Assembly (NCBI RefSeq): GCF_002119765.1
Contig: NZ_CP021112.1
Coordinates: 2,784,501-2,848,500 of the forward strand
DNA length: 64,000 bases
Direction: 5' to 3'
Origin: Pseudorhodoplanes sinuspersici
GTDB taxonomy: Bacteria; Pseudomonadota; Alphaproteobacteria; Rhizobiales; Xanthobacteraceae
The notes beneath the pieces were generated by a model, which had not been told where the DNA came from, made no database searches, and saw only the letters and a list, made by a program, of their open reading frames with translations. Numbering within the stretch: the stretch's first letter is position 1; the number at the start of each line of letters is the position of its first letter. Shown one piece after another: positions 27,236 to 43,902 of the stretch. The position numbers and the translations under genes were made by a program.

Positions 27236-27401
27236 CTAGCGCCGCGATTTCGAAGTTTCTGCGCCGTTTGCAGCAAGCTCTATCGGGAACTTCAAAATCA
27301 AAGCGGCACTAGAAACATCGACTTGCTAGTGCACCTTTGTTTCCGAAGTCGTGTATGAGATTGCTGCGGATACGGCACGAACTTCGAAAACGGTGCACTA
27401 G
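27236..27401. repeat. Head-to-head pair of CTAG-bounded hairpins (locus 1)
   Basis: Two hairpins: 27236-27312 (77 bp) and 27326-27401 (76 bp), separated by 13 nt. Each starts CTAG(T/C)G and ends CACTAG. In the first, the right arm is AAGCGGCACTAG with an extra AAA; in the second the left arm is CTAGTGCACCTTTG with an extra TTT, so the bulged arms face the spacer. The stem sequences differ between the two. The loops share a core (GCAGCAA in one strand orientation). The second hairpin ends 17 bp before the TetR start, just ahead of its AGGAGAG. Same layout as 43415-43579. Confidence 0.8.
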
Positions 27402-30370: not shown

Positions 30371-30507
30371 GACGATGCGGCGTGTAGCGGCGATTGCCAC
30401 ATCCGGCCAGTGCGGCGCGCGCACAGCGCTTATGCGTGGTTACACTTCACATCACGAAATTGGCGAGGGCCCGGTGCGTTTCGGCACCGAGCCCTCTTCA
30501 ACGTCAT

Positions 30508-30958
30508 CAGCCGACCTGTAAGCCGGGTTCTGTATGGCTCGCCGCTTGCGCGGCGAACGTGACGGCCATTCGTCTGGGACGCCGGTTGCCCGGCGCCTCA
30601 AGCAACCTACCCGAGCGGCTGGTCCGGACGGACCCAAGGACAAAGGCAAGCCTTTGCCCTCGCACCGCTCCTATTCGGTTTTGCTCCCGGTGGGGTTTAC
30701 CGTGCCGTTTCCGTTGCCGGAAACGCGGTGCGCTCTTGCCGCACCGTTTCACCCTTGCCGCAGGCTGGTACGCAACGCGCCCGAGGCGGTCTGCTTTTCT
30801 GTGGCACTTTCCCTAAGCCCGTCTGCCGCTTTGGGCGGAAGACACACCCGCCGGACGTTATCCGGCACCGTTCGTCCGTGGAGCCCGGACTTTCCTCCCC
30901 GCCGCCCTTTCGGGATCATCCTTTCGGAATTTTGGCGGAGCGGCCGTCCGGTCGACTG
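30508..30958 (-). ncRNA. rnpB: RNase P RNA (type A)
   Basis: Catalytic RNA of RNase P, read on the minus strand. The universal 5' core GAGGAAAGTCCGGGCTCCAC (complement near 30879-30898), the segment GGGAAAGTGCCACAGAAAA (complement 30793-30811) and the 3' core ACAGAACCCGGCTTACAGG (complement 30515-30533) are all present. Helix P1 forms between CAGTCGACC (complement 30950-30958) and GGTCGGCTG (complement 30508-30516), which sets the ends. Length about 451 nt. ORFs over this interval are spurious. Confidence 0.95.
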
Positions 30959-31037
30959 ACGGTGAGAGGAATGGGGATGAAAGGCACCGTCGTCAACCCT
31001 GAACGCGGGACGCCGTCGGCGAAAGCTGATCGTTGGC

Positions 31038-42115: not shown

Positions 42116-42619
42116 TCAGCGAAACACCTGATAGCTGATCGACGGCGGGGGGCGCCGCGGCTCGGCGGATGTCACCGAAGCACTGACGGGCTCGATTTTG
42201 GCCGCAACAGCGGGGCGGGGAGGTGGTGCCTCCTCGCCGGCGAGCGTTGAACGCGTGCCGGCGAGCGAGAATAGAAACGCAAGCGTCCACATCGTCACCG
42301 AGATCAATGACGTCCACATCGCAAAGGTGAGATAGACGTCGCGCAAGACCGTCGAACTGGCCCATTGCGCATAGGCTTCCGGCGGACGGAAATCCTTATC
42401 GATATAAAGCCACATCTCGGTGCGGCGATAATCCTTGGTCAGCGCTTCGCGCGCCTTCAGGATCAGAATGAAAGCCATCATCATGGTGAGAAATCCGCCA
42501 GCCTGAAAGGCCAGCCTGGGATCGAAAGACATGCCGACCATGACGCAGAAGATGCCAAGCGAGGCGAAGCCGCAGGCGCGCAGGACAGTCTCATACGCAA
42601 TGCGGCGCATATGCTCCAT
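42116..42619 (-). CDS. Small membrane protein (paralogue A)
   Basis: Protein of 167 aa from the ATG at 42619 (MEHMRRIAYETVLRACGF). Two hydrophobic segments at about 11-50 and a third at about 100-125, then a Pro-rich tail ending SISYQVFR. It aligns with the next upstream product (start MDTFRRFAFFTVARDAS): R-R-x-A-x-x-T-V-x-R, M-V-x-x-S-F-D-x-x-L-A-F and T-E-x-W-L recur, so they are tandem paralogues with unknown function. Confidence 0.75.
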   Translation of the reverse strand: MEHMRRIAYETVLRACGFASLGIFCVMVGMSFDPRLAFQAGGFLTMMMAFILILKAREALTKDYRRTEMWLYIDKDFRPPEAYAQWASSTVLRDVYLTFAMWTSLISVTMWTLAFLFSLAGTRSTLAGEEAPPPRPAVAAKIEPVSASVTSAEPRRPPPSISYQVFR

Positions 42620-42707
42620 GATCGCCCCGGTTTTGGCCCTCAACGATTCAACTGTAGCAAACGCCGCTGGTCCGGTTCGGTCACGAACCGGTGTAGTTGT
42701 TCAGTCG

Positions 42708-43070
42708 CTAGGCCCAGGATGTCAGCAGGCCCAATCCGAACAGGATGGATGCGACGCCCGCCGCGCTCTTGGCGCCGGTCAAAAGCATTGTTTCCAGTTG
42801 CTGGCGGGCATGAGCCCGCCCCTCATCCCCGACCGGACGTTCTTCCGGCTGCATCACCAGCCAGGGTTCGGTTGCGACAATGCGATCCTCGGTCAGGAAA
42901 AGCGCGCGGATCAGCATGACGGCGGTGAAGAACATGGCCACTGAAGCGCCGATGACAAACGCCAGTGACAGGTCGAAGCTGTACGCGACCATCAAGATGC
43001 CGGCCGCCAAAGCCGAAAAGCTGGCATCCCGCGCCACGGTGAAGAATGCGAACCGGCGGAATGTATCCAT
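42708..43070 (-). CDS. Small membrane protein (paralogue B)
   Basis: Protein of 120 aa from ATG at 43070 (MDTFRRFAFFTVARDAS) with GGAGG at 43076-43080. Hydrophobic segments at about 14-55 and 98-118. Similar to paralogue A over the first 70 residues. Between the two, at 42672-42691, CCGGTTCG and CGAACCGG form a hairpin. Function not recognised. Confidence 0.75.
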   Translation of the reverse strand: MDTFRRFAFFTVARDASFSALAAGILMVAYSFDLSLAFVIGASVAMFFTAVMLIRALFLTEDRIVATEPWLVMQPEERPVGDEGRAHARQQLETMLLTGAKSAAGVASILFGLGLLTSWA

Positions 43071-43302
43071 GCGGGCCTCCTTATCGAGTGGACACCTGCT
43101 CCTTTGAAAATTTCCTCTCCGGAATTGCTCGACTTTAATTTTTGCGCTGGATGCACCCGAAACGGATGCAAATGCCATGCCGGACGCAAAGATCCGGAAA
43201 GCGCTGTCCTAACGCAGCCGTTGGAGGCTGGTTCCGAAAAGCGGCAGGAAAACGTCGGGCAAGGCCTGTGACGGAGTGGCCTGCGACGGCGTTGGCCGCG
43301 TC

Positions 43303-43353
43303 AGAGCATGACGCCGAAAAGTGCGAAGCGGCTTTCGGACGACATCATGCTCT
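43303..43353. repeat. Dispersed palindromic repeat (AGAGCATGA...TCATGCTCT)
   Basis: AGAGCATGA at 43303-43311 and TCATGCTCT at 43345-43353 enclose CCGAAAAGTGCGAAGCGGCT and neighbours. The middle resembles the element at 24347-24387. The form matches, from memory, a widely dispersed Bradyrhizobium-type palindrome. First of four repeats packed between 43303 and 43579. Confidence 0.75.
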
Positions 43354-43367
43354 AACGTATTAGAATC

Positions 43368-43415
43368 GATCACGTTTATGATTTGGGATCGATTCGATCC
43401 AAAATCATCGTGATC
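43368..43415. repeat. Palindromic repeat (GATCACG...CGTGATC)
   Basis: GATCACG at 43368-43374 and CGTGATC at 43409-43415 form the ends, with inner arms TTTATGATTT/AAAATCAT and a GATCGATTCGATC centre. The last base is the first base of the adjoining CTAG hairpin, so the two were joined without spacer. The element resembles, from memory, a common rhizobial intergenic repeat. Confidence 0.75.
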
Positions 43416-43579
43416 TAGTGTGGTGGTTCGCAAGTCTGCATCATTTCTGCAGCGCGTTCTTTTGCGGACTTGCGAACCAAAACCACACTAGAATTATAGG
43501 TTCCTAGTGTCCTTTTGAATCCGAAGTTCGCCAGGGAGCGCGCTGCAAAATGAGGCGAACTTCGGATTCAGGACACTAG
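43415..43579. repeat. Head-to-head pair of CTAG-bounded hairpins (locus 2)
   Basis: Two hairpins: 43415-43491 (77 bp) and 43504-43579 (76 bp), separated by 12 nt. The left one has arms CTAGTGTGGTGGTTCGCAAG... and ...CTTGCGAACCAAAACCACAC, with one G-T and an extra AAA in its right arm. The right one has a 26-bp perfect stem (CTAGTGTCC + TGAATCCGAAGTTCGCC) broken only by an extra TTT in its left arm. The left loop TCATTTCTGCAGCGCG matches the reverse complement of the right loop (TCATTTTGCAGCGCG). The right end, CTAG at 43576-43579, contains the TAG stop of the gene at 43576-43902. Confidence 0.85.
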
Positions 43580-43902
43580 AGGCCGATCGCGAGGAAATTG
43601 CCGATCGCCGGCAGGGTCAGGATCGCCGTGCCGGCCAGCCAGATCCACAGCGAGGTGACCGTCGAATCATTCTTCGCGCCAATGAAGCGCTCGTAGAGTG
43701 CGGCTGGTATCCCGCCCAGAATCACAGTGCCGGTCGACAGCATCAACGAGGAAAAATAGGCGATGGCCGCGGTGCTGCCAAACAGCGGTTCAGCCATCAG
43801 GTAAACCGATATCTGGAAGACAAAGAAGAATAGCGGATTGAAGATCCCGTTGATCATTCCGAAAAATGCGATGCCGATGTAGTAAAAACTGCGCTCGTTC
43901 AT
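43576..43902 (-). CDS. Small membrane protein, stop codon inside repeat end
   Basis: Protein of 108 aa from ATG at 43902 (MNERSFYYIGIAFFGM), with three or so hydrophobic segments (IGIAFFGMINGIFNPLFFFVF, TAAIAYFSSLMLSTGTVILGGI, SLWIWLAGTAILTLPAIGNFLAIG). Function not recognised. Its TAG stop lies in the CTAG terminus of the right-hand hairpin, so the element lies exactly at its end. It overlaps the gene upstream by 4 bp. Confidence 0.75.
   Translation of the reverse strand: MNERSFYYIGIAFFGMINGIFNPLFFFVFQISVYLMAEPLFGSTAAIAYFSSLMLSTGTVILGGIPAALYERFIGAKNDSTVTSLWIWLAGTAILTLPAIGNFLAIGL

Follow-up and report, generated by a model that had tools for sequence, protein, structure and literature searches.

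Head-to-head pairs of bulged, covarying hairpins as a probable mobile DNA element in Pseudorhodoplanes sinuspersici and other Alphaproteobacteria

The hairpin pair and its setting

The window, the whole 64,000-nt stretch of Pseudorhodoplanes sinuspersici contig NZ_CP021112.1 analysed here, contains two long imperfect hairpins that stand head to head between a different two-hairpin repeat, termed PQ, and a gene that ends within the last tetranucleotide of the pair (Table 1). Two adjoining minus-strand genes lie to the left (42116-42643 and 42708-43178) and look like distant paralogues, with cross-matches of about 25-33% identity in tblastn comparisons against relatives. Rfam at gathering thresholds returns a single match in the window, a class A RNase P RNA on the minus strand at 30503-30959, and none for the hairpins.

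Both 26-bp stems are split 10+16 by a 3-nt bulge. The left hairpin, of X type, pairs CTAGTGTGGT with ACCACACTAG in its outer stem and includes one G.T pair in its 16-bp inner stem; the right hairpin, of Y type, has CTAGTGTCCT/AGGACACTAG as outer stem and an inner stem in which all 16 positions pair. Under DNA folding the 165-nt pair reaches -55.7 kcal/mol, where shuffled sequences average -20.2 (sd 2.8; z -12.7) and none of 200 does as well. The original prediction of hairpins of 77 and 76 nt, a 12-nt spacer, the two bulges and one left-hand G.T pair is confirmed to the base, and direct reading also bears out loops that are nearly identical once one is reverse complemented. The four hairpins predicted for the window are present as well, the other two forming a second pair.

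Table 1. Features of the hairpin pair (XY) and of the PQ repeat. Coordinates are window positions unless a locus is named; the left hairpin is assigned the strand on which the TTT bulge falls in the 5' arm.
Feature	Position	Strand	Basis or remark
Left hairpin, X type, 26-bp stem	43415..43491 (77 nt)	-	sequence; model R1, 82.3 bits
AAA bulge, left hairpin, spacer-facing arm	43479..43481	.	direct sequence reading
12-nt spacer AATTATAGGTTC	43492..43503	+	direct sequence reading
Right hairpin, Y type, perfect 26-bp stem	43504..43579 (76 nt)	+	sequence; model R1, 88.2 bits
TTT bulge, right hairpin, spacer-facing arm	43514..43516	.	direct sequence reading
Outer CTAG of the pair	43576..43579	-	its TAG (43576-43578) is the stop codon of gene 43576-43902
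Second copy, X-type hairpin (CCGC subtype)	27236..27312	-	sequence and model R1
Second copy, Y-type hairpin (CACC subtype)	27326..27401	+	sequence and model R1
PQ repeat, adjoining the pair and having its left CTAG in common	43303..43414	+	sequence
Further PQ copy	L057 2452-2563
Further PQ copy	L047 2238-2348
Further PQ copy	L056 1207-1304
Further PQ copy	L163 1386-1497
Further PQ copy	L167 ~1390-1505

A covarying repeat family and its range

The genome itself, a single contig of 5.97 Mb, holds many more copies. The bare pattern CTAGTG-N56..76-CACTAG is not evidence of this, because its 41 matches compare with 38 for a reversed-pattern control; what counts is the folding of the matched segments. 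Loci of this genome yield 59 distinct hairpins, each with arms that complement one another and with its bulge at a constant place. They form at least 24 intact pairs and leave 11 hairpins partnerless, their partner being absent, degenerate or overlooked by the extraction script. The X-to-Y layout is constant in 27 pairs collected under looser limits: CTAG-like feet, bulges in the inner arms and a short spacer that, in the X-to-Y direction between the inner CTAGs, mostly reads AATC...TTG.

Across all scanned loci there are 106 distinct pair sequences. The spacer measures 10-14 nt in 82/106 pairs with well-set ends and 13 nt in 54, the hairpins range from 71 to 83 nt (75-80 nt in 198/208; the script allowed 68-85), and the bulge is 2-4 nt long in 207/208 hairpins (1-5 allowed). 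Outer ends are exactly CTAG on the left in 75 and on the right in 68 of 105 pairs, some ends being mis-set by the script; 51 pairs have CTAG at both outer ends, and in two the ends agree on a variant tetranucleotide. A universal X+Y rule based on the ninth base was set aside: it is true for 84/106 pairs, and the exceptions are mostly ends mis-set by the script, with L152, L156, L321 and L270 among a few that look real. Because such exceptions exist, the claim is limited to heterodimers. The inner stems of partners show a weak link, with an identity of 0.621 against 0.578 and 45 of 2000 shuffles as high, in 27 non-redundant dimers drawn from 82 of the 106 pairs. In its usual form the unit is a heterodimer of about 165 bp, in which two bulged hairpins, each about 75-80 nt long, stand head to head across a short conserved spacer.

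The stems covary strongly. In an alignment of 60 hairpins, 97.0% of cells are paired against 76.1% in shuffles, and pairing falls to about 37% when one arm slides by a single base. Both-sided changes number 345 against 105 in shuffles; the counts of pairs and of types with both-sided change are not above shuffles in the same alignment (99 and 84 of 500 as high). The close subfamilies were examined in 16 clusters with at most 4 differences each (150 hairpins, 3000 cells), and they contain 55 both-sided Watson-Crick changes (33 distinct) and 53 one-sided changes (45 distinct), where simple arithmetic gives about 0.1 both-sided changes under independent mutation. The covarying stems, conserved loop and stereotyped bulge described from the window are confirmed on the 60-hairpin set, and the check for uncompensated stem changes does not refute them.

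An apparent excess of G.T over A.C cells in the inner stems (162 against 49) was considered as RNA-type wobble, and the idea was dropped because the excess sits mostly at positions of ambiguous register. Typed hairpins contain 165 G.T cells, of which 96 fall at position 10, whose bulge register is ambiguous, and 18 at the last position. With these two positions removed, a hand count gives about 51 G.T against about 41 A.C, leaving unplaced 8 untyped hairpins, which have 10 G.T cells and lack A.C cells.

The covariance-model search proposed with the original prediction was run with R1, a model of one hairpin whose E-values are rough, and it returned many paired copies in relatives. Counting the source genome in each case, matches occur in 109/198 genomes and 33/47 genera of the family (E<=1e-3), in 50/297 genomes and 27/123 genera of the order (6 more family members included), and in 15/289 genomes and 12/224 genera of the class (E<=1e-6). 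The other 14 carriers in the class set are labelled as the same class and not the same order. Strict filters were applied and at most 16-24 candidates were scored per genome, which makes the copy numbers floors. Dimers are common at family, order and class distance, and many of the Alphaproteobacteria genomes sampled, though not all of them, carry numerous copies each. Additionally, one of 80 named loci searched belongs to a named carrier, Stappia sp. WLB 29 (L120), and 8 of 72,556 plasmid records are Roseibium/Labrenzia plasmids that carry the element. Nine plasmid records span the whole region with the element. Two further element variants gave no match and a single short match, respectively, against the plasmid records, and phage records gave no element match at E<=0.01.

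Empty sites, insertion points and a neighbouring repeat

Comparison of orthologous loci, another check suggested at the outset, revealed empty sites. The flank of the window site was matched in 7 of 8 genomes of the genus, the source genome included, and all six other genomes with the locus lack the pair and keep the flanking genes. At site S0, in a genus represented by 29 genomes (g26), the element is present in G071 and G486, and the junction lacks it in 23 other genomes; 4 more gave no readable junction. The closest empty genome, G501, has a left flank 97% identical, and one S0 locus (L235) has a hairpin-like stretch further on, not at the junction. Along 740 kb of synteny, G071 and G486 have 3 pairs in common, and 7 pairs occur in one genome only, opposite an alignable empty counterpart in the other. 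For 3 further G071 pairs no flank could be aligned to the compared G486 stretch, and the empty-site count omits the partial matches at A1 127284, B1 22728, B1 317521, A2 57084 and A2 186888. In 800 kb of these two genomes, all 22 model hairpins (best strand, E<=0.001) lie in 11 inverted pairs. These occupied sites, empty in relatives, show at the level of sequence comparison that the pair is to be regarded as a copy of a mobile DNA element, and the lineage-specific presence of whole pairs suggests that the doublet is what moves.

S0 and the seven lineage-specific G071/G486 pairs together provide eight empty sites for reading the junctions. A clean target duplication appears in two, where CTAG and CTGG respectively are single when empty, and a third is off by one base, with CAGG in the empty site and CTAG/CAAG in the occupied one. 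The other five empty sites read CTTAAG, TGACCG, CTCCCGA, CAATAT and ATTCAAGAACG (6-11 bp), the edges of these strings shifting somewhat with the aligner. Insertion is compact, and simple target duplication is not established.

Copies also abut one another with one common tetranucleotide, CTAG in L185, L159, L145 and L024 and CTCG in L006. The pair abuts PQ at CTAG in four loci (the window, L163, L006 and L047), and in L167 a PQ copy is nested in an XY copy with CTAG at both PQ ends. Although unlike in sequence, XY and PQ seem from these junctions, in a PQ sample biased to the surroundings of XY copies and fetched regions, to have an insertion preference in common, and perhaps machinery too. 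In locus L195, a stretch of about 265 bp (~1592-1855) with inverted ends GGTCTGGACCTATAAAATTGA separates the spacer from the Y hairpin and is flanked by CTAG at either end; it is another small insertion, at the inner CTAG.

PQ itself reads AGAGCATGATGCCGAAAAGTG...CGTGATC and folds into two bulged hairpins of its own. The RIME elements of Rhizobium, attributed to Osteras et al. in 1995, are said to measure about 108 bp and to contain two palindromes, and PQ is possibly the RIME of rhizobia. RIME resembles XY in having two palindromes per unit and in its occurrence in Hyphomicrobiales, and differs in being shorter than the XY unit. The RIME name appears in PMC2573895 and PMC2245857.

Mobilisation, rival explanations and related repeats

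The window pair is best explained as a copy of a mobile element that spans about 165 bp and is non-autonomous, a reading given a probability of about 0.78. Both hairpins would fold in DNA, as a cruciform or as a single strand, and one enzyme acting in trans may bind both, probably recognising the loop motif and the bulge close to the foot. The dimer would be the moving unit, as for REPINs, and integration would favour CTAG or CTAG-like sites. Pairing could be maintained because an unfolded copy is immobile or through repair in which one arm is copied from the other, and the inserted copy probably has no obligate function, although it can give a neighbouring gene a stop codon or a 3' hairpin. 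More tentatively, XY, perhaps together with PQ, might represent a class-wide superfamily of RAYT-independent heterodimeric bulged-hairpin elements, joined at CTAG-like sites by a non-RAYT hairpin-reading enzyme without simple target duplication; this broader proposal is possible, with the odds somewhat against it.

Candidate movers were sought in the genomes themselves. The Y1 transposase (PF01797) has no match in the source genome at E<=0.001; among 20 other carriers with many model matches it is present in 8 and absent from 12, the latter including the single-contig genomes G071, G126, G333 and G339. A RAYT/Y1 transposase was therefore set aside as the mover. No neighbouring recombinase was found among the ORF clusters recurring in 120 partly overlapping loci and 20 longer regions (13.7-18 kb, the pair re-detected in 17/20, few copies sampled per carrier). 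A recurrent neighbour gene was likewise rejected, the clusters in question being element-overlapping ORFs, an ABC transporter, TctC and an M23 peptidase. DDE_3 (IS630-type) matches, checked in the source genome only, occur at two places. At one of them, near C1:5,943,900, an AGAGCATTTTTC end lies beside CTAG (L180 2016-2025); this end, the only one located, resembles the start of PQ more than XY.

RUP and Correia elements are grouped with the IS630/Tc1-mariner MITEs, small elements with which XY has several traits in common. A MITE of an IS630/Tc1-mariner-type DDE transposon would have the arms as terminal repeats and the TA within CTAG duplicated. The CTAG ends, the single CTAG between nested or abutting copies, the CTAG on either side of the L195 insert, site S4, which is a single CTAG when empty, and the DDE_3 locus with its CTAG-adjacent end all agree with such an origin. 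Like XY, such MITEs are too short to encode a transposase and have inverted ends, and a CTAG/TA target may be common to both. According to PMC2170065, ISY100 duplicates its target TA, and a title in the reference list of that paper reports an IS630-associated transposon that prefers the TA in 5'-CTAG-3'. However, the DDE_3 locus has no CTAG-bounded end like the XY arms, no partner transposon with XY ends was found in the source genome, and 5 of the 8 empty sites misfit a simple TA or CTAG duplication. Moreover, nothing in the MITE design would call for two unlike hairpins in one unit, each a palindrome in itself. An IS630-type enzyme is the leading named rival as mover, to be taken as a lead, and the MITE account is on balance unlikely.

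The resemblance to REPINs, moved by a RAYT (a Y1 HUH transposase), is close in form. As described in PMC3116915 and PMC2817692, REPINs are miniature, non-autonomous elements that occur in many copies, each an inverted doublet whose hairpins are imperfect and whose foot tetranucleotide is conserved; the doublet seems to be the mobile unit, and one copy may insert into or beside another. XY is likewise an inverted doublet (11 of 11 model units in the 800 kb), and a Y1 match is present in 8 of the 20 carriers tested. Unlike REPINs, which have a GT(A/G)G head (PMC3116915, PMC2817692), XY has CTAG and not GTAG at both feet of both hairpins. Its two hairpins also differ from each other and, at about 75-80 nt each, with a 26-bp stem and a loop of about 20 nt, exceed the 20-40 bp given in PMC3733652 and PMC2817692. 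XY works like a REPIN, but it lacks the GTAG head and occurs in genomes from which the Y1 transposase is missing, its own among them, and mobilisation by a RAYT is very improbable. Bradyrhizobium and Rhodopseudomonas are reported to carry the GTAG- and CGTC-tagged REP superfamilies (PMC3733652), which are also palindromes in dimers, often heterodimers, with copy numbers that vary widely between strains. Unlike XY, they measure 20-40 bp, bear the tag at one end, and have stems 5-13 or 8-9 bp long. Bradyrhizobium also has Br-REP1 and Br-REP2 (PMC5082802), intergenic palindromes from the same bacterial order. A 20-base core of each printed consensus is absent from the window even when 3 mismatches are allowed and, judged by these cores, XY is not Br-REP1/2. 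The literature search found no description of the element within its reach, which left out most subscription papers, and an older description may exist; within that reach, and by the Rfam result, the layout matches no described family.

Two further explanations concern how the pairing is kept. A structured RNA or transcription signal, such as a terminator or 3' end stabiliser kept by selection at the site, would suit the very stable stems and the position of flanking genes: 40/87 of their 3' ends fall within 20 nt of such a pair, against 20/93 of their 5' ends (crude ORF calls). However, the same calls place the 106 pairs in tandem (49), divergent (22) and convergent (19) settings, inside a long ORF (6) or in unclear ones (10), presence at orthologous sites is patchy and lineage-specific, G.T is not clearly commoner than A.C where the register is unambiguous, and no T-run directly follows either window stem. 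An RNA signal is improbable on these grounds. The covariation is read as acting on DNA because gene orientations are mixed and the G.T excess is mostly artefact, and the data fit fold recognition and arm-templated correction alike. Of the original proposal of selection on a folded RNA or cruciform, the conserved, covarying structure is borne out; its structured-RNA part is unsupported, given the empty sites, the occurrence in all orientations and the G.T count. Covariation might also arise unselected, if template switching between the arms of a quasi-palindrome restores complementarity, and the both-sided Watson-Crick changes that are as frequent as one-sided ones within close subfamilies favour this. 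Yet correction alone would be expected to erode the bulge and loop motif, which persist over long distances, and it leaves the spread, the dimers and the CTAG ends unexplained. As a full explanation template switching is rather unlikely; it is compatible with a mobile element, and both may act together.

A widespread non-coding element with copies that differ by lineage between close relatives, and for which the search found no transposase, points to a hidden mobilising activity in many alphaproteobacterial genomes. Its many covarying subfamilies also offer a data set for learning what an enzyme recognises in a DNA hairpin. Additionally, copies shape gene ends, since the outer CTAG supplies a stop codon in the window and on one Roseibium plasmid. 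On that plasmid, the TAG within the outer CTAG (L182 3937-3939) is the stop codon of the neighbouring gene.
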